The notes under the pieces: generated by a model
The model's database searches: none
Told to the model about the DNA's origin: nothing
What the model saw: only the letters and a program-made list of their open reading frames with translations
In this document: one piece after another, positions 24,578 through 38,503 of the stretch
How the letters are laid out: each line of letters opens with the position of its first letter
Position numbering within the stretch: position 1 is the first letter of the stretch
Origin: Enterovibrio norvegicus DSM 15893
Lineage (GTDB): Bacteria; Pseudomonadota; Gammaproteobacteria; Enterobacterales; Vibrionaceae
DNA length: 64,000 nt
Direction of reading: 5' to 3'
NCBI RefSeq assembly: GCF_900115495.1
Contig: NZ_FOWR01000023.1
Location: 1,384 to 65,383 of the forward strand
Position numbers and translations under genes: made by a program

Positions 24578-24701
24578 GTCTATCCTTAGAACATCACACT
24601 ACTCAGGAGAATTCACTCATCTCTACCAACTATAGAAGTGTTGACGATAACATGCGGGAAATTAACGGATTTTGTGACTATTTGATATGCCAGAAACGAG
24701 A

Positions 24702-24727
24702 AAACCCGAGCATCTCTGCTCGGGTTT
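24702..24727 (-). terminator. Terminator of tRNA-Ser copy 1
   Basis: AAACCCGAGCA (24702-24712) pairs with TGCTCGGGTTT (24717-24727); on the minus strand it is followed by TTCTCGTTTCT. The same hairpin follows the second tRNA-Ser at 38384-38409. Confidence 0.85.
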
Positions 24728-24733
24728 CAAATA

Positions 24734-24821
24734 TGGCGGTGAGTGAGAGATTCGAACTCTCGATACGTTGCCGTATACACACTTTCCAGGCGTGCTCCTT
24801 CAGCCACTCGGACAACTCACC
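24734..24821 (-). tRNA. tRNA-Ser (anticodon GGA), copy 1
   Basis: 88 bases with encoded CCA. Acceptor GGTGAGT pairs with ACTCACC; anticodon stem CACGC/GTGTG-type around loop CTGGAAA gives anticodon GGA (reads UCC/UCU); long variable arm and TTCGAAT T-loop are typical of class II tRNA-Ser. Identical to 38416-38503. Confidence 0.96.
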
Positions 24822-26316: not shown

Positions 26317-26799
26317 TTATGCGTCGATGTCTTGCGTGTCTTCAGGACGAAGTTTACGTTGCACACCCATCAGGAAGTTACGCAGGATTTGGTCTTTACA
26401 CTCACGGTAGTGTTTGTTGTCCGCTTTGCGTGAGAATGCACTCAATTCGTGCTTGCTCAAGCGGAACTCCATCAGCTCTAGCGTTTCGATCACATCTTCT
26501 GCTTTCATGTTCAGCGCGATACGCAGCTTCATGAAAATCATGTTGTTGTTCAAGCGCTTCTCAGGCTCAGGCTGTTCGCCTTCACGCTTGCCACGTTTCG
26601 TGTTGATCAAACCATTCAGGAAAATCGCTAATTCGGTATCTGTTGCTTTAACAAAAGCTGCATCATCATCCTTGCGAAGCCAGTTAACCACTTGCTCTTG
26701 CGTCACAGCGTGATCAGCAGCAGCGAAAATTTCTACCATCGACTGATCTTTAAAGTCAAAGGTATAACGGATACGGCGGAGAATGTCGTTATTAGTCAA
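26317..26799 (-). CDS. yehS: YehS-like protein, DUF1456 family, 160 aa
   Basis: Two repeated modules of about 70 residues, each starting with a similar NNDILRRIRYTFDF / NNNMIFMKLRIALNM pattern (residues 3-16 and 84-98), which is the tandem DUF1456 layout of E. coli YehS. Acidic middle and a short acidic tail (EDTQDIDA). No catalytic motif or membrane segment. Function of the family unknown. The same orientation as the helicase at 24964, 93 bases upstream of it, so co-transcription is possible. Confidence 0.85.
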   Translation of the reverse strand: MTNNDILRRIRYTFDFKDQSMVEIFAAADHAVTQEQVVNWLRKDDDAAFVKATDTELAIFLNGLINTKRGKREGEQPEPEKRLNNNMIFMKLRIALNMKAEDVIETLELMEFRLSKHELSAFSRKADNKHYRECKDQILRNFLMGVQRKLRPEDTQDIDA

Positions 26800-27036
26800 A
26801 ATAATTCCTAGTGTTAGGTTTGATCTAGCCTTTCAGTGCAACCACTGACGGCAAAAATAAAAGCGCGCAACTTTAGCATAATGCCCTCTACGTACCAATG
26901 ATTTCTTGTTCTCACACAGCGGCCCTGCAGTTATCCACTCTTTATTCTTACACCAACTCAACATAAACATCCGATCCACTCTTGCAATAAATACAAAATC
27001 TTCGAAGAGAGGGCTTTACTTTTCATTGATACGATC

Positions 27037-27055
27037 AATAATGATAATCATTACT
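27037..27055 (+). promoter_or_regulatory. Fur box upstream of the nickel SOD operon
   Basis: AATAATGATAATCATTACT matches the 19-bp Fur consensus GATAATGATWATCATTATC at 16 of 19 positions, with a perfect core ATAATGATAATCATTA. It ends 21 bases before the first start codon, over the likely promoter, so iron-loaded Fur would repress the operon. Confidence 0.8.
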
Positions 27056-27076
27056 ATTCGCATAACGGTGATGAGA

Positions 27077-27478
27077 ATGGATTGGAAAACCTACGTGACA
27101 CACGGAAATAGATGTTTTCACAACAAACACTGGGTTGATGCAGAGCGGCATTATGGCCTCGCATTACACGCAGTGGAAAAGGAAGAACCTGTCATACATC
27201 AAAATGGCGACATCCTTTTTGCTTGGCTTGCCTGTCACCATAACCTGGCCACCTTGTTCCAATCCCAAAGCAAGCACTCAGAAGCGCGTTTCTATTTAGA
27301 TACCCCTCTTGAGATCCTCGAAAAGACGCTTGGTAACACACCCCCTGACGATCCCTTTTTTATTTCGCTGCTGCGCGCCTACCAAACGGGATTAAACGCG
27401 CTGTGCTTATTCGAAAAAGCCATGAATTCAACGGTAGCGTCAACCGCTACATCGCAAACACAGGAGAACGTGAAATGA
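27077..27478 (+). CDS. Small helical, TPR-like protein, first gene of the sodN operon, 133 aa
   Basis: I chose ATG 27077 (MDWKTYVTHGNRCF) because GGTG sits six bases upstream; ATG 27071 is also possible, and the open frame further upstream runs through the Fur box. The sequence shows one clear TPR-like helical pair (YVTHGNRCFHNKHWVDAERH, then LALHAVEKEE) and a second (HHNLATLFQSQSKHSEARFY). His and Cys are frequent in the first 30 residues. No signal peptide. It overlaps the next gene by ATGA, so it is coupled to the His-rich membrane protein and the sodN-sodX pair. Possibly an assembly or nickel-handling helper; function not known. Confidence 0.75.
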   Translation: MDWKTYVTHGNRCFHNKHWVDAERHYGLALHAVEKEEPVIHQNGDILFAWLACHHNLATLFQSQSKHSEARFYLDTPLEILEKTLGNTPPDDPFFISLLRAYQTGLNALCLFEKAMNSTVASTATSQTQENVK

Positions 27479-27675
27479 CTCAACGCTTGGCATTATTTGC
27501 ATTCCTATTAACAGCAAGCCCAATGTTGATGGCGCATGCAGGTCATGATCATGGACATTGGTCAGCCTCCCTTATTCATCTTCTATGGGCGCTACCTGTT
27601 ATTGTCGCAGGGGCAATTGCATTTTGGGGGTTACGCCGTATACGTCATCAAAAGCATCATCAACAAGGAGAGTAA
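27475..27675 (+). CDS. Small His-rich membrane protein in the nickel SOD operon, 66 aa
   Basis: ATG with AGGAGA upstream, overlapping the previous gene by four bases. Signal peptide-like residues 1-20 (MTQRLALFAFLLTASPMLMA), then HAGHDHGHW: four His and an Asp at the start of the predicted mature protein, a likely nickel- or other metal-binding cluster on the periplasmic side. One membrane segment (about 33-52) is followed by a basic cytoplasmic tail RRIRHQKHH. Position directly before sodN suggests a role in nickel acquisition or delivery for Ni-SOD. I do not recognise a named family; the function is inferred from composition and context. Confidence 0.8.
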   Translation: MTQRLALFAFLLTASPMLMAHAGHDHGHWSASLIHLLWALPVIVAGAIAFWGLRRIRHQKHHQQGE

Positions 27676-27677
27676 GC

Positions 27678-28178
27678 ATGCTATACGCCCTATTAAATAA
27701 GCTCGACCAAAGAACAGCGTTTACTCGCGCATCTGCGCATTGCGATATTCCTTGTAAAATTTATGACCCTTCCCATGCACAAATCGCAGCACTTACGATC
27801 ATAAGAATGTTGGACTTGATTGAAGAATTACCAACCTCGGAATTGTCCCAAAATCAGCAAGCACGTTTCGTTCGTTTGGTGCAGCAAAAGGAAGAACATG
27901 GCAGCAAAGTAAAAGAAGATATTCGTGTCATTTGGGGGGATTATTTCAAGCAACCACAATTCGATACGTTCCCTGAAATCCACACGCTTACGCATGACAT
28001 CATGATGCTGGCTTCAAAGGCGAAACAAGAAATTGATCGTGAGGCAGCACTGGCGCTTTTAGACAAAGTGAACCGCTTTGCAGATATATTCTGGCAGAGC
28101 AAAGACGTTCCCACTTATGTCGCAACGTGCCCGTACCCGCCAGCACTTCCTGTCATTTACCCAGATTTGAAGCCATAA
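27678..28178 (+). CDS. sodN: Nickel-containing superoxide dismutase precursor, 166 aa
   Basis: Converts superoxide to H2O2 and O2 with a nickel centre in the cytoplasm. The diagnostic nickel hook HCDIPCKIY (residues 21-29; family H-C-x-x-P-C-x-x-Y) follows a 20-residue leader, MLYALLNKLDQRTAFTRASA, which must be removed so that His21 becomes the N-terminal ligand. The rest is helical, as in the four-helix-bundle fold. ATG 27678 with AAGGAG seven bases upstream; longer open frames upstream belong to the previous gene region. The protease that should remove the leader is encoded four bases downstream. Fur-box control fits the idea that Ni-SOD replaces Fe-SOD when iron is scarce; this is inference. 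Confidence 0.95.
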   Translation: MLYALLNKLDQRTAFTRASAHCDIPCKIYDPSHAQIAALTIIRMLDLIEELPTSELSQNQQARFVRLVQQKEEHGSKVKEDIRVIWGDYFKQPQFDTFPEIHTLTHDIMMLASKAKQEIDREAALALLDKVNRFADIFWQSKDVPTYVATCPYPPALPVIYPDLKP

Positions 28179-28182
28179 ACCC

Positions 28183-28500
28183 ATGCTCGGATTACGACTC
28201 TTCCGGATTGAGGGACATTCTATGTTCCCTCTCTATAAATCGTCTGACTTTGTGATAACCGTGCGTGAACCATCATGGTGGAGAAAGCAAACTGGCACAG
28301 CTTATGCGTTTACCCACCCTATTTTTGGATGTGTCATCAAAACACTTAAGCAAAGCGATGAACATGGCCGATATTGGTTTCGAGGCGCAAACCCATCCAG
28401 TGTCAGCAGCCGAACACTCGGCGCTATTGATCCAGCAATGCCGCTCTATCGGGTGTTGTTTAAAATCAGTAAACCCACGAAGTCGTTGACGGCGTCATGA
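28183..28500 (+). CDS. sodX: Nickel-type superoxide dismutase maturation protease, 105 aa
   Basis: Short S24/S26 signal-peptidase-like protein. Nucleophile Ser13 lies in EGHSMFP and the general base is probably Lys53 in GCVIKTL, the Ser/Lys dyad pattern of the family. It has no membrane anchor, consistent with cutting a cytoplasmic precursor. It starts four bases after sodN and has only a weak ribosome binding site, so translation is probably coupled. Expected to remove the SodN leader to expose His21. Followed by a strong terminator. Confidence 0.92.
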   Translation: MLGLRLFRIEGHSMFPLYKSSDFVITVREPSWWRKQTGTAYAFTHPIFGCVIKTLKQSDEHGRYWFRGANPSSVSSRTLGAIDPAMPLYRVLFKISKPTKSLTAS

Positions 28501-28527
28501 ACCTTGGACGCTCTTCTCCAAAAACAA

Positions 28528-28558
28528 AAAGCCCCAGTATTTCTACTGGGGCTTTCGA
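28528..28558. terminator. Bidirectional terminator between sodX and the TelA operon
   Basis: AAAGCCCCAGTA (28528-28539) pairs exactly with TACTGGGGCTTT (28544-28555). A-rich on the left and T-containing on the right, so it can serve both converging operons. Confidence 0.85.
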
Positions 28559-28572
28559 TATTTCACTTCACA

Positions 28573-29634
28573 TCAAGACAAGGTCTGCTCTAACGCTTTT
28601 TTAAGCTCCAATTCTGCCTTCTCAATCACTTGTTGTGCATGCTCTCGCTGGGCTCTACCCTCTTTGACGCGAGACAAGGTGTTATTCAAGGTTTCAATCG
28701 TCAGCTGATTCACGGTTTCCAATGAATCCAGATCAAGAATGCCACGCTGATAGTTCTCGGCAATTTGCTCTTCCAGCGCCTTGAGCTTCTCAGCGTTCTG
28801 AACATACTGCTTGTTGGTGTAGTCTTTCACCGCACGCGTCACTTTCAGCGCTTTCTCTTTTTCATAATTGGAAATCGCAATCAAGAACTGGCGTTTCCAT
28901 AGCGGGAAGGTGTTATGGACGATATCTTGAATATCCTCCATCAACATTTTATTGCCTTCCTGCGAGAGGCGAATTTGAGGCGCAGTTTGAATAGCAGCCA
29001 AACGCGTTAACTCAAGGTTGTGAACACGCTTTTCAAGACGTGCAATCGCTTGAGAAGCATCACGGTACTTTTGCGCATCAAGGGCATCACCACTTTGCTC
29101 TGATTGCGCAAGCAAATCAGGCAGTACGTTCTGTGTGAGATCGTTCAGTTTGTATTTACCCGCCGCGATGTACTGATCTAACCCCGCAAGCAGCTCTAAG
29201 TTATGATCATAAAGCGTATCTAGCTGCGTAATATCATGCGCAAGTTTTACTTCCTGCGCTTCTAAGCTGCCCGATAACTGCTCTAATTGACCTTTCACCG
29301 AATCAAAACTCGCCGAGAATTTTTTGAAAGAATCAAAAAGTTCGCCCACCAACGGAAGCCTCGATAACAGGCTCTTCTTACCAAGGTTGTCGAACTCAGC
29401 ACTGTCCATGGATGACACCATGGCGTGCAGAATATCTCCTGCCTCACCGCTGTCACGAACACGGACTTGCTCTAAGACTTCATCAGAGAATGCGGTGATC
29501 TTTTCCAACGCACCTTTACCAAAGGTAATCGTGGCTACGGTATCAAACGCATCAAACTGTTCAGCCAAAGCCACGATTTGAGGTGTCACCTCAACATCCA
29601 GCACCTGACTCTGAGGATTCGTCAATTCAGTCAT
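28573..29634 (-). CDS. TelA/KlaA family toxic-anion-resistance protein, 353 aa
   Basis: Long helical, acidic, cytoplasmic protein with the TelA (PF05816) pattern: an N-terminal helix pair, KSLLSRLPLVGELFDSFKKF at about 85-105, KYKLNDLTQNVLPDL, and the conserved IQTAPQIRLSQEGN followed by NTFPLWKRQFLIAI. Much of the C-terminal third is coiled coil. Named after tellurite resistance, but the biochemical role is unknown; comparative genomics has linked TelA to membrane-associated stress responses. Last gene of the operon, 15 bases after the PLD gene, with GGGAG upstream of its ATG. No ter genes are in the window. Confidence 0.9.
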   Translation of the reverse strand: MTELTNPQSQVLDVEVTPQIVALAEQFDAFDTVATITFGKGALEKITAFSDEVLEQVRVRDSGEAGDILHAMVSSMDSAEFDNLGKKSLLSRLPLVGELFDSFKKFSASFDSVKGQLEQLSGSLEAQEVKLAHDITQLDTLYDHNLELLAGLDQYIAAGKYKLNDLTQNVLPDLLAQSEQSGDALDAQKYRDASQAIARLEKRVHNLELTRLAAIQTAPQIRLSQEGNKMLMEDIQDIVHNTFPLWKRQFLIAISNYEKEKALKVTRAVKDYTNKQYVQNAEKLKALEEQIAENYQRGILDLDSLETVNQLTIETLNNTLSRVKEGRAQREHAQQVIEKAELELKKALEQTLS

Positions 29635-29649
29635 TGGATCTCCCTGTCT

Positions 29650-30354
29650 CTATGACGGCTTATGGCAGGGAAACTTCTGCCATAGCGTTTCAAACTGCCT
29701 TGAGAACGCAGTAACAAACCTGCGATCATCGGTAAGCGTAATATCTTCCTGATTATATTTGGAGGCACTGCGCGTCCAGTTAAAACTGCCGTTAATCAGT
29801 CTTTGTTCGTCAAATATCGCAAACTTATGGTGCATATGGTACTGAGTCGTATCAATTTTGACGGCAACGCCTTGTTCGGCGAGGTACTCTACGTCACTCC
29901 CTCTGTCGTACATCTTGTCGTTGTCCGTCACGATACGCACCTTAATCCCGCGCTTGTGAGCATCAAGAATATGCTTGGTCAAATCATTGTCTGCAATGGT
30001 AAACACACAAATATCGATGGAATGACGAGCGAGTTTTAGCTGTTCAATAATACCCGCAGCACACGTTCTCCCAGGCGAGAACCAACTCGTTGCTGTTTCC
30101 GTTGAACTCGCGCTTATGATGTTATCTAGCACTTTCACAACGCGTTCCAACCAACGCACAAGAGCTGCAGCATCGCCTTGGTTTGCGATTTCTTTCTGCA
30201 CCAATTTGAAACTCAAATTACGCAGATAAGAACGGTCTTCATCGCTTAACACCGATTCAGCAAGCTCAGCTTGAAGCTCTCGGCGTTCATTGTCGTCTAA
30301 GCGGTAATCTTCAATCGAGGCTTCCAGCCACGCCGACCATTTTTGTCGATTCAT
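29650..30354 (-). CDS. Single-HKD phospholipase D / nuclease-like protein, 234 aa
   Basis: One complete HKD motif: His175-His176-Lys177, Asp182, then GSFNW (189-193), preceded by a beta/alpha segment (HSIDICVFTIADNDLTKHIL) typical of the mitochondrial cardiolipin hydrolase/Nuc subgroup. Single-HKD proteins act as dimers and may cut phosphodiesters in lipids or nucleic acids. About 80 residues of helical N-terminus precede the domain; no signal peptide or membrane segment, so it is cytoplasmic. The ATG follows the ATPase stop codon directly and uses AGGAGG inside the ATPase gene, giving tight coupling. Substrate (DNA, RNA or cardiolipin) cannot be decided from sequence. Confidence 0.88.
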   Translation of the reverse strand: MNRQKWSAWLEASIEDYRLDDNERRELQAELAESVLSDEDRSYLRNLSFKLVQKEIANQGDAAALVRWLERVVKVLDNIISASSTETATSWFSPGRTCAAGIIEQLKLARHSIDICVFTIADNDLTKHILDAHKRGIKVRIVTDNDKMYDRGSDVEYLAEQGVAVKIDTTQYHMHHKFAIFDEQRLINGSFNWTRSASKYNQEDITLTDDRRFVTAFSRQFETLWQKFPCHKPS

Positions 30355-33300
30355 TTAATTGCCTCCTTGGCTGTTACCGCCAAAGCGGGCAACATGTTGG
30401 TTCAGCATGGCGAGCTGTTGTACTACTTGTCCTGCACGGTCTTCGGAATCACCCATCATTTGTTGGCGTTGATATCCGTCAGTGATTTCCTGCCAACGTC
30501 CTTGTTGTTCCGGTGTCATATCACCACGCAGTTCAGCAAGTTTCAGCAGGTTTTCTTCCGTACCCGCCGCCAATGTCTGGGCTTCACCTTGATAGTGATC
30601 TTGCAGCATGGTGTTGAGTTCTTCATCGGTCATGACTGACGAGATTTTCTCGGCAAGTTTGTTCATGTTTCGATAAGAACCCTGCAGCTTAAACGGTGGC
30701 TCAACACGATACTGATCCGCCGTAGCGGCGGATTTGATGTACTGCTGATTCACCTTGAGCACGGTTTGCTGTGCCATCATCATTTTTTGCAGCGTAGAGA
30801 CAATCTCATTGGATTCGGTCGCCGAATACGAATGGCTCATGTCACTCAGTGCAATGCTCTCCCCTTCTGCCATGCGAACAAAGCGGTAAAGGTCATTCAA
30901 GTCTCTGGTCGCTAGCGGTGCAAGTACAGAGTTCGACGTCAGAGAGTTCTCAATGAAGCTGAGTTCGAACGCTTGCTTCTGATCAGACAGCATGTCACCA
31001 AGGTTGTAGATATCTGCACGGTTCGACAACATATCGGGAATTCGGAACGCTTCACCGGTTTCGGTATACGGGTTACCCGCCATCACAACCGCAAACTTCT
31101 TGCCACGCATGTCATAGGTTTTGGTTTTGCCTTTCCACGTACCTTCAATGCGACGTGTTCCATCACACAGTGAAATGAATTTCTGAAGAAATTCAGGGTG
31201 GGTGTGCTGAATATCATCAAGATACAAGAGCACGTTGTTACCCATTTCAAAGGCGAGGTTAATTTTTTCGATTTCGCGCGCGGCGTTTTGATCAGGCGCA
31301 TCAGCAGGATCAAGTGAGGTGGCTTGGTGCCCAATGGACGGGCCATTGATCTTCATAAACACCAAGCCAAGCTTGTGTGCTACGTATTCGATCAAGGTGG
31401 TTTTACCGTAACCCGGCGGCGAAATCAGTAGCAGCATCCCCATCAAATCGGTGCGTTTCTTATCACCCATGGTGCCCATCTGTTTGGCAAAATTATCGCC
31501 AATCAATGGCAGATAGCTTTCGCTGATGAGTTTGTTTCGAACAAAGGATGTGAGAGGACGAGGTTTGAATTCCCCGAGTCGGAAATCATCTTTCGCGGTA
31601 TTAAGGAGCTCTGTGCGTTGATTGAGGTAAGCATCAAACTGCGGAACCACCGCAGTTCGGTGATGCTCGTTACGCTGGATAAAATCATCTAACACCAGCG
31701 TTAACTGACCTTTTTCAATGCGATCATGCTCACCCAATAAGCCGTCAATGCTGCAAAGCAGCGAGAAGTCGACACTGCCGATAGAGAAATTAGAACATGA
31801 TTTCAACACAGTGATGGTCGCGGCTTCCAAAACAAACGCTTCGCCATACTGCTTACGAGACGTATAAGCAGTCAACCATTGTTTGTGATCAGCAAACGCT
31901 GTTTCAATGACTTCATCAGCTTGATGCCAACCCAGACTGCGACGAAACTGAAGGTAGTCTTCACAAAGCGTTAGGGCATCCTGACTGACTTCAATGTTGA
32001 GTTCACTCTGACCCAGTAAGTTCACCAGATACTCTGCAGCCTCATTCGCTTGTTCAGCCTCGAGTAACGCCACCAGCTGAGTTTGCAACAGTTGATAAGC
32101 CTCTGACGAATTCAAATGTTCACGCAATAGCTGCGCATTGATGGCTTGTTGACGATAATGTTCCACTATTTGGCTATCTTGAGCGAGCAACCACAGCAAC
32201 GCAGAGGAACGGGCTGATTGGCTGAATCGTAGCAATCCCGCTTGCTGGTAGATAGGTAACACTTTGTCCAAAATACGAATGGCATCGTTGTCGTGAATAC
32301 CTTTCACATAACCTTCTTTGTAGCGAGGTGCAGCGAATTTTTGTATGCACTCACTCAACAAGCCTTCTTTTTGATCAGCGTAGAGCTTATCGAGACTCAA
32401 CCCATCGGTATTGAGTTCAGCACCGTGCAGGATCAAGTACGCCAAATATTCTGCGCGATACACGTCTTCACTTTCTGATGCCACATCCAAACGGGACATA
32501 GATTGGAGCGTTAGGAAGGTTTCATCTTCAACAGATTGGTAAAAATCCGTACCCGAAATGTGGGTAGACAATTGACCGTCATGATCAACAAGACTGAGAT
32601 CAAGCGGCTGTTGATTTACACTAAAACGGTGCTTACCAAGACGAAGGACTTTACCTCCCTGCTCGAAGATATCCTGATTGTCACGCAGCGAACGCAAAGA
32701 CTGATCTTGCAGTGATTTGATTTTTGAATCGACACTGTCAGCCTTCACGCTGTCACCCAATTCTCGAATCGTTGTCGACAGTTGATGCAGTTTCAGCACC
32801 ATTGCATCTGTTGCGAAGTAGCTGTTAAGCCCCGCCACATCATCAAAGCGTTCCACGCGCTTTTCGATGCTCGACATGGTGACGTTAGCAGCTTGCAGAA
32901 GGTTCTGAATACGACGCTGTTGAGCCGCAATCAATTGCTGTTTGTGGTTATCGAGCGTTGATTGAATTTCATCTCGTTTGGCATAAATTTCAGCGAGAAA
33001 CTGGTCAAAGTCAGCAAAACGAGATTCAAGCTTGTCCAATTGACCAACCAGTTTCGCTAGCTGATTGTCACAGTCGTCAGGACTTGTTGCCTGCTCCATC
33101 GCACTGCTAACAGATTGACTAAGCAACTTAAACTGCGCACTGAATTCAGCTTGCGCTTCTTCACTTTGAAGGCCTTTAGACTTACCACGAAGTTTCGCGG
33201 AGACAGTATTGAGCATTGACGACACTTCCGTCGTCAAATCTAAAATCCGTGTCGCTTGTGTCGGGTCATCCGTTTCAATGTCCGTGACTTCTTCCGTCAC

Positions 33301-35220
33301 CAATTGAAGTTCGCTTCTTAGCGTTTCAACCTGATCTTGCAGGATCTGAATTTCAGCGGTTTTATCCACCTCTTCAAGCTGCGTTTCAATGGTCTGGATT
33401 TGCTTTTTAAAAGGCAGGTAAGCCTTTTCATCCTGCAGAAGGTTTAGCAACTGCAGATTCAGACTTTCGCGCTGCTCCTGAAGTGTTTCCAGTAAGGTAT
33501 CAATCCGCTCTTCATCAATGTAATGCTGCTGACGCAGCGCCATCACTGCACCCACCTGCCCTTTCACTTCTGAAAGCAAGGTAAGCAAAGTGTTGGCTTG
33601 TTCTTTCGGTGCAAGTTTGATCTTTCCGATCAGGTCAGAAACGATCCTGTTCTGATCTTCAATACTTTGTGCAGCATGACTTTGAAGCTGCTGAACCTTG
33701 GCGAATTCATCGATGATTTTGTCCGCCGTGCCCATCAGTTCGCCAATGGCATCTCCCATGCCTAACGCGTATTCGTGGCCGAGCCAGGTGTAATGATCAA
33801 GCGTTGATTGACATTGCTTGAGAAGCATTTCAAACGCCGCCTGCGTCACCTCCTCTGTCTGTGCTAATTGGCAAATTGACAAAACAGACGATAAGGCGCG
33901 AACCAGTTCAGTATTGCCAAGATTAAATAACGGGCTGCTGCCATCACCTTTGGCATTTTCGAGGGCATAGTATTCTGGCGTTGAAAACGGCGTATCCCAA
34001 ATACGCAAAGGGTGGATAGTGGAGGCTTCCGCATTTTCAGACAATTGAAAAACAAGGAAGCGTCCATCGGGATAAAGGCTATAACCATGGCTTTCCATGG
34101 GTGCTTCGAACTTTTTCTCAATCAGGTTATAAGTGAAGGCAATGTAGTAACCGTCCACCGCATTGAAGAAGAAATACAGAATGTCTTCACCGTTGGGTGA
34201 AATTACTTTTTGGAAGAATTTGAGATTATTGGCAGGAAAATCGAACTGTTTGCTTTCACCATTGGCGAGCACATAGCCGTTTGCGTAAAGCACACCATGA
34301 TCTTCAGGCAAGGATTTTGCGCTTTCACGCAGCGCATCTGCGCGTGTCACGGATTGATTAAGTGGGTTGTAAAGAAAGTAGCGGCTATGTTTTTCGCGGT
34401 TTGGCTTCACCCGCAATGCAATCAACTCGCCAATAAAGGCATAGTCGATTTGCGCATCGGCAATACTCTGATGTGCATCTTCCACATCTTCGCGATAAAT
34501 GCCTTTTCCTTCTGAGGTGTTGTCTTCAACCTTGATGGTCAAATCCCCACCCACACACTCAACGAATAGCTTATCTCGAATAGACACATGCGGATGCTCA
34601 CCCAACACATGATCTTCACGCGTCGTAGCTATCCAATCAAAATCATGCTGTGTCGCGCTTTCGAGCGGTGCATGACCGTAAGAGTCCATGTACTCGGCGG
34701 AATTGGCATTCAACTGGAAGCGAAACACCTTACGGTCTTCGGGTCGGCTGCCAATTTGAAACGCGATATAAAGAATACTCTCCTGACGCGAGATTTGAGA
34801 TAAACGTGCGTCCCGGTAATAGGTAAACAACTCGGTAAACTCATGCACGAAGCGCGCATCATTCAAGAAGCTGTTTTCTAACGTTAAAGACTCGACACGA
34901 AACGTACCTTCATTTTCATGAAGTTGATAAAGGCCAAACACATCATCCAATGATGGTGCTGCCTTCATACCTACCTGTACGTGGTAACCAAACAACAATT
35001 GTTGGTTTACCTGCGCCATATCGATGGGAATACATTTGGCATCAGTTTGTACATTGGCTTTACCAATCAGCGAGAGCTCTTGGCCGCCAAATACGTCCTG
35101 ACGTTGATGATTGAAAGACTGAGAAAGGGTTTTTAGCTGGTTGCCCTGTTGGGACAGGCGGGATTTGAGAACCTCGTACGCACCGCCTTCACTCACAGCT
35201 TGTTGAGTCGTCTCTGACAT
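30355..35220 (-). CDS. Giant AAA-type ATPase, DUF3686 'DNA repair ATPase'-like, 1621 aa
   Basis: N-terminal third (to about 480) is strand-rich and looks like a beta-propeller or DUF3686 region; the middle (about 500-800) is strongly heptad-patterned coiled coil; the C-terminal third has an AAA module with Walker A SPPGYGKTT (about residue 1265), Walker B VLLYLDDIQH (about 1330) and a following KFAVVMAGNPYTETGE sensor-1-like strand. I chose ATG 35220 (MSETTQQ), with AGGT upstream; a TTG at 35235 would add five residues. Homologues are commonly labelled DNA repair ATPase without experimental proof. Lies between flotillin and PLD genes in one operon; a hairpin (35234-35259) sits just before it. 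The build suggests a large remodelling machine tied to a membrane scaffold. Confidence 0.88.
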   Translation of the reverse strand: MSETTQQAVSEGGAYEVLKSRLSQQGNQLKTLSQSFNHQRQDVFGGQELSLIGKANVQTDAKCIPIDMAQVNQQLLFGYHVQVGMKAAPSLDDVFGLYQLHENEGTFRVESLTLENSFLNDARFVHEFTELFTYYRDARLSQISRQESILYIAFQIGSRPEDRKVFRFQLNANSAEYMDSYGHAPLESATQHDFDWIATTREDHVLGEHPHVSIRDKLFVECVGGDLTIKVEDNTSEGKGIYREDVEDAHQSIADAQIDYAFIGELIALRVKPNREKHSRYFLYNPLNQSVTRADALRESAKSLPEDHGVLYANGYVLANGESKQFDFPANNLKFFQKVISPNGEDILYFFFNAVDGYYIAFTYNLIEKKFEAPMESHGYSLYPDGRFLVFQLSENAEASTIHPLRIWDTPFSTPEYYALENAKGDGSSPLFNLGNTELVRALSSVLSICQLAQTEEVTQAAFEMLLKQCQSTLDHYTWLGHEYALGMGDAIGELMGTADKIIDEFAKVQQLQSHAAQSIEDQNRIVSDLIGKIKLAPKEQANTLLTLLSEVKGQVGAVMALRQQHYIDEERIDTLLETLQEQRESLNLQLLNLLQDEKAYLPFKKQIQTIETQLEEVDKTAEIQILQDQVETLRSELQLVTEEVTDIETDDPTQATRILDLTTEVSSMLNTVSAKLRGKSKGLQSEEAQAEFSAQFKLLSQSVSSAMEQATSPDDCDNQLAKLVGQLDKLESRFADFDQFLAEIYAKRDEIQSTLDNHKQQLIAAQQRRIQNLLQAANVTMSSIEKRVERFDDVAGLNSYFATDAMVLKLHQLSTTIRELGDSVKADSVDSKIKSLQDQSLRSLRDNQDIFEQGGKVLRLGKHRFSVNQQPLDLSLVDHDGQLSTHISGTDFYQSVEDETFLTLQSMSRLDVASESEDVYRAEYLAYLILHGAELNTDGLSLDKLYADQKEGLLSECIQKFAAPRYKEGYVKGIHDNDAIRILDKVLPIYQQAGLLRFSQSARSSALLWLLAQDSQIVEHYRQQAINAQLLREHLNSSEAYQLLQTQLVALLEAEQANEAAEYLVNLLGQSELNIEVSQDALTLCEDYLQFRRSLGWHQADEVIETAFADHKQWLTAYTSRKQYGEAFVLEAATITVLKSCSNFSIGSVDFSLLCSIDGLLGEHDRIEKGQLTLVLDDFIQRNEHHRTAVVPQFDAYLNQRTELLNTAKDDFRLGEFKPRPLTSFVRNKLISESYLPLIGDNFAKQMGTMGDKKRTDLMGMLLLISPPGYGKTTLIEYVAHKLGLVFMKINGPSIGHQATSLDPADAPDQNAAREIEKINLAFEMGNNVLLYLDDIQHTHPEFLQKFISLCDGTRRIEGTWKGKTKTYDMRGKKFAVVMAGNPYTETGEAFRIPDMLSNRADIYNLGDMLSDQKQAFELSFIENSLTSNSVLAPLATRDLNDLYRFVRMAEGESIALSDMSHSYSATESNEIVSTLQKMMMAQQTVLKVNQQYIKSAATADQYRVEPPFKLQGSYRNMNKLAEKISSVMTDEELNTMLQDHYQGEAQTLAAGTEENLLKLAELRGDMTPEQQGRWQEITDGYQRQQMMGDSEDRAGQVVQQLAMLNQHVARFGGNSQGGN

Positions 35221-35233
35221 AATAATACCTATC

Positions 35234-35259
35234 AATCCCGCCTCATAAGAAGCGGGATT
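35234..35259 (-). promoter_or_regulatory. Intercistronic hairpin between flotillin and ATPase genes
   Basis: AATCCCGC (35234-35241) pairs with GCGGGATT (35252-35259) with a 10-base loop; no T-run follows on the minus strand. It may tune expression of the ATPase relative to flotillin by RNA processing or partial termination. Confidence 0.45.
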
Positions 35260-35279
35260 CTGCGAGAAGAAATGAAGGG

Positions 35280-37370
35280 TTATTTATCGTCTGATGACGG
35301 TTCCATTGAGCTTTGAATTTTCTTTAAGAGCTCAGTTGCCCCACCTTGCGAGTTCAACAAACTTGCTAACGCAACATTGCTCAAGTCACTGCTTTTCAGT
35401 TCAGTGTTCTCCAAAATAGCTTTCAAATCTTCTGGTAGGCTTCGGTTTCCATCCACATACTCGGACACCAATGGGTTCAGCACTTTCGATTGCTCAAATT
35501 TGGCATCAATTGCAGAGGCATCCATGATAGTACGGCGAATCTGTTCCATACCTTCACCACCAAACAGACGGATATCAGCTTTTGACAGTGCCTCTGCCAA
35601 TGCTTTCGCGTTTTCACTGACCACGGTTTTCTGTGCATCAATGCGCGCGATTTCCAGATCTTTATCTTGTTGCAGTTGCATCACCCACTTATCGTGGTCG
35701 CGCGTATGCTCATCGTATTGTTGCGCCGCTTCAAAGCGTGCAGTTTGTGCTTCTGCTTCTGCCAAGCCCTTAGCACGAAGTGCCTGCGCTTCTGCTTCAC
35801 CTGCACTTTGCATGGCAAACGCTTCTGCCTCGCCAGTTTCTTTAATGGCCTGAGCGCGCTCACGATCCACTTCGACTTCAGCAAGACCCGTTGCACTGAT
35901 CATTTCTTTCTCAGCATGTGCCATACGCTCTTTGGCTGCGGCTTCACGTTCTTTCGCCACATAGCCCGCTTCTGCACGTTTGGTCGTGACAATATGCTCC
36001 GCTTCCGCTTCGCGTGTCTTCACGGCTAGGTCATTTTCCGCATCACGGGTTTTCACTTTAAGTTCGGCTTCATTTTCAATCAGCAAACGCTCTGCACGTT
36101 CTTTTGCTGCATCTTTCTCAGCGCGAGCACCAACCAATAATTCAAGCTGCGCGGCTTCTGCAGCCGCTTCTGCTTCAATCATCTTCACGCGTTTTTCACG
36201 GCCTACACGCTCATTAACACGAAGGTTTTCAGTCTCTTCCTCTTCACGCGCAATTTTACGTTCAATTTCAACACGCTGAGAGCGTGTTTCGGAAACAGCT
36301 TTGAGCGCTTCTTCAACCGTTGTCTCTTTCTGCATTTCACGCTCAGCCACTTCCGTCGCTGTACGTACTTTTTCTGTTTCAACAGAACGGGTCAGCTCTT
36401 CTTGCTGAATAGCCACTTGGCGCTGATTGGCGATACGGGTCATTTCAACTTCCATTTCCACGCTTTCACGCTTCTTGGACACTTCTTCTTCCGTTTCTAA
36501 TTTCGCCAACTCAGTGACGCGCAAATACTCCTGTCGCTTCTCAGCCGCTAGCGCTTCTTCTTGCGCGGTAATAATGTCAACTTCACGTTGAGTACGCGCA
36601 ATACTCTCTTTTTCTTGCTTATCTAACTGCAGACGGTTTGCTTCCGCTTCAACGTTTTTCTTCTTCATCGTTGTGCGTTCATCCTGACGGATAGCATTCG
36701 TTTCTGTGTTCTTTTGAGCAGTAATTGCTGAGATTTTACGAATACCTTCAACATCAAGAATGTTATCCGGGCTATGAGCATCCAGCGCGGTTTGGTCAAC
36801 TTTATCGATAACCACATCGTAGATTTTGAAACCATCCATTTCGCTGCCGATAACTTCAACAACCGCATCACGGAACGCACGGCGATTGGTGAGCAATTCT
36901 TCAAACTCAAATTGCTTTACCGCCGTTTTCAATGCTTCTGAAAATTTAGGTTGGAAGTGTTCTTTTAAACGTTCAAGATTCGAGGCTTCATGTGCTGTGA
37001 AGAGTTTGGCTACACGAACAATGTCTTCTTCTTCATGATTTACACCGATATAAAAATCAACTCTTAAGTCCGCTCGGATGTTGTCTCGGCAGTGAAGACC
37101 TTCATACTCTTCGCCTTCCTGATCTTTACGACCACTGCGTACAACAGAGATTTTCTTACGCGTAATGTCCATGTATTCGAATCGGTTAACAATCGGCCAC
37201 ACAAACGTACCAGTTAACGAAGCGCGTGTACGGTGAAGTCCGTTCACAATAAGTGCGTCACCCTCACCACGTACTTTTTTATAACGAGAGGTGAGAAAAA
37301 CCATGACGATAAGGAAAACGCTGATGCCAATGCCGATAAAAATGATGCTAGGGGAAATTTCCATTTCCAA
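35280..37370 (-). CDS. yqiK: Flotillin-like SPFH protein, YqiK family, 696 aa
   Basis: N-terminal membrane anchor (residues about 8-28, PSIIFIGIGISVFLIVMVFL), SPFH/band-7 domain (about 30-205, with VDFYIGVNHEEEDIVRVAKL), then about 390 residues of Glu/Ala/Lys/Arg-rich coiled coil with EAEA repeats (about 210-600), and a C-terminal domain with ADIRLFGGEGMEQIRR typical of flotillins. Flotillins oligomerise into membrane microdomain scaffolds. Longer than E. coli YqiK (about 550 aa), mainly by coiled coil. Sits 18 bases downstream of the YqiJ-like gene, the conserved partner pair. Confidence 0.92.
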   Translation of the reverse strand: MEMEISPSIIFIGIGISVFLIVMVFLTSRYKKVRGEGDALIVNGLHRTRASLTGTFVWPIVNRFEYMDITRKKISVVRSGRKDQEGEEYEGLHCRDNIRADLRVDFYIGVNHEEEDIVRVAKLFTAHEASNLERLKEHFQPKFSEALKTAVKQFEFEELLTNRRAFRDAVVEVIGSEMDGFKIYDVVIDKVDQTALDAHSPDNILDVEGIRKISAITAQKNTETNAIRQDERTTMKKKNVEAEANRLQLDKQEKESIARTQREVDIITAQEEALAAEKRQEYLRVTELAKLETEEEVSKKRESVEMEVEMTRIANQRQVAIQQEELTRSVETEKVRTATEVAEREMQKETTVEEALKAVSETRSQRVEIERKIAREEEETENLRVNERVGREKRVKMIEAEAAAEAAQLELLVGARAEKDAAKERAERLLIENEAELKVKTRDAENDLAVKTREAEAEHIVTTKRAEAGYVAKEREAAAKERMAHAEKEMISATGLAEVEVDRERAQAIKETGEAEAFAMQSAGEAEAQALRAKGLAEAEAQTARFEAAQQYDEHTRDHDKWVMQLQQDKDLEIARIDAQKTVVSENAKALAEALSKADIRLFGGEGMEQIRRTIMDASAIDAKFEQSKVLNPLVSEYVDGNRSLPEDLKAILENTELKSSDLSNVALASLLNSQGGATELLKKIQSSMEPSSDDK

Positions 37371-37388
37371 CTCCTGATTTATAGTCCG

Positions 37389-38003
37389 TTATGCTTTCGC
37401 TACCACGTAGCGATTTGAAGTGTCATCTTTGAAGACGATGACCACTTCTTCTCCGTATTGAATCGTGCTTTCGTCTTGGAGCATGACATCAAGTAAGAAC
37501 TCATTACCTTGATGCAATACCACGACTTCCCCTCTTTCTTTGTTAACGACGTTGCTGTGAACCCGCGCTTTCAGACCAATATAGTCAACCTGAGCAAACG
37601 CCTTTTTACGGTCGAACAATGGCGCGAGTGGCTTTAACAACAACGCAGATATTGCAAGGGAGAGGTAAGCAACGATTGGGATTGATACGAGATCAATCAA
37701 AAGGTTTGTAACACCTGAAAACAGGTTGTTATTCACTTGCGCGGAGTAGAACGATATGACGGTTGCGATAAAGCACGATACGCACAACGCAACCATAAGA
37801 GGGACTTTGGATAACACCTGAGGCAATAACAACCCTGCGCCAGGAATATTATCAAGGTCAAAAATGTCAAGATCAGCCGTGAAGCCTTCCACCACATTAA
37901 AAACCAGATCTACGAGCATAATGAGGAAAAACACTACAAACGGAATGAAAAATACGCTTGTAGGAAATGCCATCAGCATACCCAGGAACTCACCAACTGC
38001 CAT
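37389..38003 (-). CDS. yqiJ: YqiJ-like inner-membrane protein with OB-fold domain, 204 aa
   Basis: Three to four hydrophobic segments (about residues 8-38, 65-90, 95-125) followed by a soluble beta-rich C-terminal domain (about 138-204; IGLKARVHSNVVNKERGEV is typical of NfeD/YqiJ OB folds). NfeD-type proteins are genomic partners of SPFH proteins and are thought to control their assembly. First gene of a five-gene minus-strand operon, with a promoter 23-51 bases upstream. The ribosome binding site is weak. Confidence 0.9.
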   Translation of the reverse strand: MAVGEFLGMLMAFPTSVFFIPFVVFFLIMLVDLVFNVVEGFTADLDIFDLDNIPGAGLLLPQVLSKVPLMVALCVSCFIATVISFYSAQVNNNLFSGVTNLLIDLVSIPIVAYLSLAISALLLKPLAPLFDRKKAFAQVDYIGLKARVHSNVVNKERGEVVVLHQGNEFLLDVMLQDESTIQYGEEVVIVFKDDTSNRYVVAKA

Positions 38004-38025
38004 ATAACGTTACTCTAAACAAAAT

Positions 38026-38054
38026 TTTATATTTTATCGTTGTTTTGATGTCTA
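38026..38054 (-). promoter_or_regulatory. Sigma-70 promoter of the yqiJ-yqiK-ATPase-PLD-TelA operon
   Basis: On the minus strand TAGACA (38054-38049), a 17-base spacer and TATAAA (38031-38026), each one mismatch from consensus, 23 bases before the YqiJ start. Confidence 0.6.
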
Positions 38055-38275
38055 AACTTTTTACAACGGTATCCAGACTAACTGAGAATGCTCAGGTTTA
38101 AACCCATGAGGCAGGCTTATATGATTGGGTTCAAAGAAATAATTCGGGAAATTCTTATACAAGACAGAGGCTCGGGCTTTTAGCCAGTGCATACAAAATG
38201 AGACAGCAATGAGGGTGTTATACGCTGTTGCAGTGATGGGGTCGCGTTTAACATCAGTTATACGCTAGAAAAAAA

Positions 38276-38302: not shown

Positions 38303-38383
38303 GAATGGCAGCACAGGAGAGTACGCGCCACTCTTTAGCCTTCATCTTTCTGTTTCTTGTTTTTCTACAAGCCAGAAACGAGA

Positions 38384-38409
38384 AAACCCGAGCATTTCTG
38401 CTCGGGTTT
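38384..38409 (-). terminator. Terminator of tRNA-Ser copy 2
   Basis: AAACCCGAGCA (38384-38394) pairs with TGCTCGGGTTT (38399-38409); same hairpin as at 24702-24727, with one loop difference. Confidence 0.85.
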
Positions 38410-38415
38410 CAAATT

Positions 38416-38503
38416 TGGCGGTGAGTGAGAGATTCGAACTCTCGATACGTTGCCGTATACACACTTTCCAGGCGTGCTCCTTCAGCCACTCGGACAACTC
38501 ACC
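38416..38503 (-). tRNA. tRNA-Ser (anticodon GGA), copy 2
   Basis: Identical in all 88 bases to 24734-24821, including encoded CCA, loop CTGGAAA with anticodon GGA and long variable arm. Own promoter and terminator. Confidence 0.96.

Follow-up and report, generated by a model that had tools for sequence, protein, structure and literature searches.

A TelA-bearing variant of a phage shock protein-linked flotillin/ATPase operon in Enterovibrio norvegicus

Introduction

What might a bacterial cell do with an operon that combines a flotillin, a giant ATPase, a phospholipase D (PLD)-superfamily protein and a member of the TelA family? This question is raised by a 64,000-nt stretch of DNA from Enterovibrio norvegicus DSM 15893 (contig NZ_FOWR01000023.1, positions 1,384 to 65,383; hereafter the window), in which five adjacent minus-strand open reading frames (ORFs) occupy positions 28573-38003. 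To our knowledge, neither the TelA proteins nor the DUF3686 ATPases have an agreed function. The results presented below show that the operon is a TelA-bearing variant of an operon class described before in connection with the phage shock protein (PSP) response. The best reading of its function, to which we give a probability of about 0.45, is that of a flotillin-anchored, PSP-related membrane-maintenance machine.

Results

The five genes form one unit

The genes of the operon are, in order of transcription:

37389..38003, minus strand: YqiJ-like inner-membrane protein of 204 aa, about three transmembrane (TM)-like stretches and a soluble C-terminal part (hhalign 91.6 against Escherichia coli YqiJ)
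35280..37370, minus strand: YqiK-type flotillin of 696 aa, with one TM-like stretch, a Band_7/SPFH domain and a long charged tail
30355..35235, minus strand: giant ATPase of 1626 aa, with DUF3686 (residues 34-482), a DUF7902 region (604-687) and a C-terminal AAA+ domain (Pfam)
29650..30354, minus strand: single-HKD PLD-superfamily protein of 234 aa (PLDc_2)
28573..29634, minus strand: TelA-family protein of 353 aa, predicted to be all-helical (PF05816)

Gene order and strand are kept in 25 of 25 further Vibrionaceae loci, which is more than a chance association. The exceptions concern gene content: PLD is absent from G155 and G163 and TelA from G271 (G and L numbers denote genomes and loci, respectively). 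In addition, the ATPase frame is broken in two of the 25 loci (G164 and G228). Whether the five families co-occur as a unit, a check proposed in the first-pass annotation of this DNA, was analyzed in 197 Vibrionaceae genomes, 26 of which contain the ATPase family. A PLD with 56% identity or more to that of the window was present in 24 of the 26 ATPase-positive genomes versus none of the 171 ATPase-negative ones; three of the latter have only distant PLDs (29-33% identity), and two of the positives have a second, distant PLD. Likewise, TelA scored over the cut-off in 25/26 ATPase-positive versus 10/171 ATPase-negative genomes. The samples analyzed for ATPase, PLD and TelA were taken to be one set of 197 genomes, as their counts match and genome identifiers reappear among them, and since these genomes are related the Fisher values for the co-occurrence overstate the evidence. 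Together, these results show that the five genes form one unit. Split or broken ATPase frames, due to decay or sequencing error, were also seen in loci L041, L142, L143 and L006, of which L041 and L142 share sequence.

All five ORFs were confirmed in the place, order and strand first annotated, with gaps of 0-59 bases; counted from ATG starts and beginning at the telA end, the intergenic distances are 15, 0, 59 and 24 bases. The ATPase has the annotated length of 1621 aa when read from an ATG, and 1626 aa when read from a TTG. Two further elements flank the genes:

28527..28556, minus strand: intrinsic-terminator-like site 3' of telA
38116..38135, minus strand: conserved block TTTGAACCCAATCATATAAG upstream of the operon, a candidate promoter or operator (upstream alignment of congeners having the operon at different sites)

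The one terminator claimed initially was recovered as a 13-pair stem followed by a T-rich tail, in a window where terminator-like sites overall show no excess (14 versus 11 in shuffles). The single promoter claimed along with it was not: the sigma-70-like sites listed for the operon strand include none at 38004-38150, and a sigma-54-type pattern occurred at chance level (92 matches with at most two mismatches versus 85.5 expected). Sigma-54 control, as proposed for the Pseudomonas aeruginosa bac operon (see below), was dropped as the pattern count was no better than expectation.

The operon belongs to a described class

The main text of Ravi et al. 2024 (PMC11237479) describes a flotillin/AAA/YqiJ operon built around a CesT/Tir-PspA pair, with an HKD PLD in some Proteobacteria, as well as abbreviated operons without PspA, for which it is suggested that PspA is encoded elsewhere in the genome. 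The window operon shares with this class a flotillin with TM and band-7 regions, a giant AAA+ protein whose N-terminal DUF3686 presumably equals their beta-propeller, a YqiJ-type TM protein and an optional HKD PLD. In the described class the ATPase contains a coiled-coil region in addition to the propeller. The window operon differs in that it has no adjacent YjfI-PspA and that telA is added at its 3' end. Because the adjacent CesT/Tir-PspA dyad is missing, we classify it with the abbreviated form, as a variant, and not with the full form. The idea that this is an uncharacterised system without precedent had therefore to be abandoned, the core and the PLD being already in that study (PMC11237479). 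The TelA form itself was found neither in its main text (tables and supplement apart) nor in the literature searched.

Assignment of the individual proteins is in agreement with this. For the YqiJ-like protein, Pfam gave no match and BLAST against E. coli YqiJ nothing meaningful, the relationship being detected by profile comparison (hhalign probability 91.6). The flotillin matches Band_7 (E 9.5e-10) when its N-terminal 230 aa are scanned alone, has no Pfam match when scanned whole, and is 26% identical to E. coli YqiK (E 5e-25). In E. coli, YqiJ and flotillin YqiK are neighbors as in the window, but no ATPase, PLD or TelA gene was found in the 10 kb examined, nearly all of it downstream. The ATPase matches DUF3686 (E 1.8e-158), DUF7902 (E 2e-17) and AAA_5 (E 7e-8), and shares 83% identity with its Vibrio jasicida counterpart; no paper naming DUF3686 was found in the literature searched. 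The motifs SPPGYGKTT and LYLDD, which we take to be Walker-A-like and Walker-B-like, respectively, do not differ between the window ATPase and the two homologues aligned with it (40-42% identity).

PspA and TelA rarely occur together in related operons

A survey of 84 rows, namely the 80 best-scoring of 555 confirmed genome loci, three further, unnamed ones and the window itself, annotated with profiles built for this analysis, showed that the YqiJ-flotillin-ATPase core is present in Pseudomonadota, Myxococcota, Planctomycetota and Actinomycetota. The ATPase tree and the counts of PspA and TelA are based on the 74 rows in which YqiJ was detected and the ATPase is not split. Eight rows, several of them short contigs, were dropped because they had no YqiJ hit (L055, L059, L075, L087, L090, L097, L108 and L112), and L006 and L041 because of their split ATPases; L041 has TelA and no PspA, and none of the ten dropped rows has PspA. 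PspA alone was found in 35 of the 74 rows, TelA alone in 11, both in one (L086) and neither in 27. DUF2170/YjfI lies beside PspA in 35 of the 36 PspA rows, the two families being Pfam-confirmed in one locus, and PspA is on the opposite strand in L102 and L105. Genes for rhomboid, zinc-ribbon and small TerB-like proteins recur in the relatives' loci. A protein of about 107 aa adjoins PspA in several operons (L053 6827-7147 and relatives; seven loci clustered). Among plasmid records, 12 of 72,556 contain a relative of the ATPase; several of these are chromosome-sized, and one is the Pseudomonas fluorescens SBW25 record NC_009444, presumably pQBR103.

The P. aeruginosa bacABCDEF operon looks like a PspA-type relative of the window operon. 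According to the available text of Wallart et al. 2024 (PMC10948618), transcripts extend over each junction from bacA to bacF, BacA belongs to DUF2170 and BacB to PspA, and a possible PSP system was proposed. The six genes thus start with DUF2170 and PspA, and in Pseudomonas loci L048-L051 the order is DUF2170-PspA-YqiJ-flotillin-ATPase plus PLD; judged from this order, bacC to bacF would encode YqiJ, flotillin, ATPase and PLD. The bac operon differs from the window operon in having PspA and DUF2170, and TelA is not mentioned in that text.

Two TelA lineages in the same operon

The TelA protein of the window matches PF05816 over residues 22-349 (E 3e-77, 260 bits versus a curated cut-off of 30); its predicted model has long helices at 96-181 and 184-271 and a mean predicted local distance difference test (pLDDT) score of 65. 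The ATPase tree places the TelA operons in two clades, one of Vibrionaceae and Aliagarivorans and one of Lysobacteraceae type, the latter nested among PspA operons; given the starred branches, the TelA label must have changed at least twice. In agreement with this, the operon TelAs of the two sets each form a clade, and their union in a single clade was rejected by the approximately unbiased (AU) test (p-AU 1.2e-4, i.e. 0.00012). This test was based on 28 rows, 13 operon TelAs and 15 others; distant TelAs fell outside it because the others had to score at least 150 bits against the operon-TelA profile, and the tree builder warned of long branches meeting. Most simply, these sequences would be explained if the same operon acquired TelA from two lineages and lost the adjacent PspA. 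The ATPase tree is unrooted and does not fix the order of gain and loss for the Vibrionaceae. Locus L086 of Lysobacter xinjiangensis, holding both PspA and TelA, resembles an intermediate.

In genome G184 (L167, 4502-5578), an operon-type telA with 86% identity to the G223 gene occurs without the other four genes. The locus is a natural telA-only remnant, with the same genes on either side as the complete operon of G223 (L133). In L164 (1129-3415) and L168 (955-3178), two neighboring TelA-family genes lie beside short ORFs that we take to be TerD-like. Lysobacteraceae-type operons encode a protein of about 230 aa between ATPase and telA (L103 15346-16053, L057 8072-8743), for which there was no Pfam match over the cut-off.

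The PLD-superfamily protein resembles MitoPLD in sequence

The PLD protein matches PLDc_2 (E 1e-30) and contains the motif HHKFAIFD; the HKD and GSxNWTRSA residues are kept in 17/17 sequences. Its best sequence match in the PDB is MitoPLD (E 5e-29), Nuc scoring 6e-11, so that by sequence MitoPLD/Zucchini (PLD6) is nearest among solved structures. By fold, the predicted model, which consists of a helical N-terminal domain and a MitoPLD/Nuc-like domain, ranks Nuc and NucT slightly above MitoPLD. The protein is similar to MitoPLD/Zucchini in its single HxKx4D and GSxN motifs; the activities associated with that family are cardiolipin hydrolysis and RNA cleavage by an endonuclease. MitoPLD and Zucchini carry an N-terminal membrane anchor, whereas the window PLD has the helical domain at this end and no TM-like stretch. 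This domain aligned with the small TerB-like neighbor family (hhalign 53.6) over only 38 columns, that family being itself below the TerB cut-off. Identification of the PLD as DISARM DrmC was rejected because it scored 32.5 bits against this model, far under the curated cut-off of 133.

The PLD is an optional part of the operon, since it is missing in 2/25 Vibrionaceae loci and was not found in 62 of the 84 surveyed loci, some of which end at contig edges. The 22 rows with a PLD include, within the 74, six with TelA and 14 with PspA (L086 being in both counts), and L067 and L107 with neither.

The operon moves as a block

The window operon lies in a hot spot bounded by two repeats that are 98% identical:

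38371..38503, minus strand: one of the two 133-nt repeat copies that border the insertion hot spot, made up of tRNA-Ser(gga) and its 3' flank
24689..24821, minus strand: second tRNA-Ser(gga) copy of the 133-nt repeat, on the opposite side of the hot spot

Comparison of the window with congeners that have the operon elsewhere delimits the transferred DNA sharply. Similarity spans 38019 to 28583 for G178, 38139 to about 28580 for G202, G214 and G222, and 38004 to 28583 for G228. For operons at different sites, the matching DNA thus begins shortly before the first gene and stops at the 3' end of telA, and the operon moves as a block. Across species it was found in at least eight different neighborhoods, which include one flanked by mutS and, on the opposite side, cinA-recA-recX, a sodN neighborhood, and one in which the operon separates siderophore-interaction from GFO/IDH-type genes (names partly assigned by eye). 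The operon alone occupies the gap between the tRNA-Ser repeats in G183; in G178 and G162 two such repeats are about 200 bases apart, and in G225, G228 and G206 the hot spot holds other genes, as judged by eye. Partial 3' tRNA copies are present in several of these congeners, and no integrase was among the 25 flank families listed out of 109.

The cargo of the hot spot varies by species of the genus, being the operon, nickel superoxide dismutase (NiSOD) genes, a DEAD-box gene, polysaccharide-like genes or about 200 bases. In the window, the same hot spot also contains, at 27558-28500 and convergent to the operon, a NiSOD gene (E 2e-52) and a putative maturation protease gene, the latter scoring 36.5 bits, below the cut-off of 63.25.

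Discussion

The initial proposal was a membrane-anchored machine that senses envelope or DNA damage, toxic anions or phage. Its membrane-anchored ATPase and its link to envelope stress fit the present results, as the PSP-linked class shares the core and Listeria telA is connected with nisin; phage defence and Ter-type functions are not supported. In the favored reading, a membrane-maintenance machine, the YqiJ-like protein and the flotillin would form a membrane platform on which the giant ATPase docks. Its AAA+ motor would load, remodel or disassemble a helical protein on the inner membrane, which would be TelA in the window operon and PspA in many related ones, comparable to the action of Vps4 on ESCRT-III. 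While the machine is active, the MitoPLD-like enzyme, possibly its effector, would alter local phospholipids or, less likely, cut nucleic acid. The outcome would be that damaged inner membrane is repaired or sealed under envelope stress. The available Listeria literature places telA among the LiaRS-regulated nisin-resistance genes and reports that telA mutants are more nisin-sensitive. The lmo1966-telA (XpaC-TelA) pair is thus similar to the window operon in TelA and in a link with envelope stress, and differs in that flotillin, ATPase and PLD are not mentioned with it in these sources.

Several results weigh against this reading. We know of no biochemical activity for the ATPase. About a third of the rows (27/74) have neither PspA nor TelA nearby, the one-sided Fisher value for the mutual exclusivity of PspA and TelA (p 0.002) does not take kinship into account, and the 80 named loci, being the best-scoring of 555, lean toward relatives of the window. 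The TelA model is poor (pLDDT 65), and its listed matches include other helical bundles and not PspA, Vipp1 or ESCRT-III. PspA is encoded elsewhere in the window genome and in 15/15 other ATPase-positive Vibrionaceae searched (15 of 25), so that a functional replacement of PspA by TelA does not necessarily follow, and as G184 keeps telA without the other four genes, TelA may also work alone. Finally, the phenotypes in the available text on the bac operon, defects in biofilm, rhamnolipid and swarming, bear only indirectly on membrane repair (PMC10948618).

These same phenotypes would fit another role, homeostasis of surface lifestyle or secretion (biofilm formation, surfactant secretion) instead of repair. 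In the text available (PMC10948618), mutation of bacA is reported to compromise rhamnolipid secretion as well as swarming and biofilm formation, but the mutations hit bacA (DUF2170) and, earlier, pa3731 (PspA), neither of which is present in the window operon, and bac is only presumed to be orthologous to it; we consider this role unlikely. That the ATPase acts on DNA and that the PLD is a nuclease, both serving nucleic-acid repair or processing, is quite unlikely in our view. Of the five proteins, two contain TM-like stretches, many relatives adjoin PspA, and the PLD sequence favors MitoPLD over Nuc; moreover, no experiment was found behind the repair name, nor a paper naming DUF3686, in the literature searched. 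Resistance to tellurite or other toxic oxyanions in the Ter sense, which the name of the TelA family suggests and to which the first-pass annotation had linked TelA and the large ATPases, is very improbable: no TerC/TerD-type match was found among the ten proteins of 26317-38003, the part of the window scanned for Ter genes, and the TelA phenotype in the Listeria sources is nisin sensitivity.

Anti-phage defence, in which the platform would sense phage-caused membrane damage and the HKD enzyme destroy nucleic acid or lipid, is in line with the patchy spread (26/197 Vibrionaceae), with mobility and a tRNA-Ser hot spot with swapped cargo, and with the presence of PLDs in DISARM and Dpd systems, although the window matches were below the NCBI cut-offs. 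We nevertheless regard it as improbable. The flank set, from which the flanks of the window were excluded, comprised 137 proteins of at least 120 aa, up to three per side, from 32 loci (31 Vibrionaceae and Aliagarivorans); at most 29 of these loci are independent since L134, L141 and L142 share sequence with L039 (Photobacterium), L040 (Vibrio) and L041 (Veronia), respectively. Among the 137 proteins, 15 PADLOC models matched at E 1e-20, each in one member, a figure counted per model and not resolved to single proteins, and for which there is no background set. The frequent flank families listed were LysE, recA, cinA, MFS, mutS and similar, so that a location near defence islands was not borne out. 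No ATPase relative was present in 50,697 phage records or in a viral-contig pattern scan, and the PLD is well under the DrmC cut-off. Defence, tellurite resistance and DNA repair thus have less support than membrane maintenance.

Membrane maintenance can be extended to a bolder model, which we consider doubtful: TelA would be a second, unrelated membrane-coating protein acting like PspA/ESCRT-III, driven by the flotillin-anchored giant AAA+ motor and recruited twice independently in place of PspA, with the MitoPLD-type enzyme tailoring lipids. Neither the convergent recruitment of TelA nor a sharply bounded mobile unit with a MitoPLD-like enzyme was found in the literature searched. The tie between a MitoPLD-like enzyme and a bacterial membrane machine provides a lead on the role of such enzymes in bacteria. 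The two TelA lineages in the place of PspA in the operon lead to a testable claim, namely that a single motor accepts TelA and PspA interchangeably as clients. If the bolder model is true, a molecular role could be assigned to the TelA family, so far known mostly in connection with tellurite.

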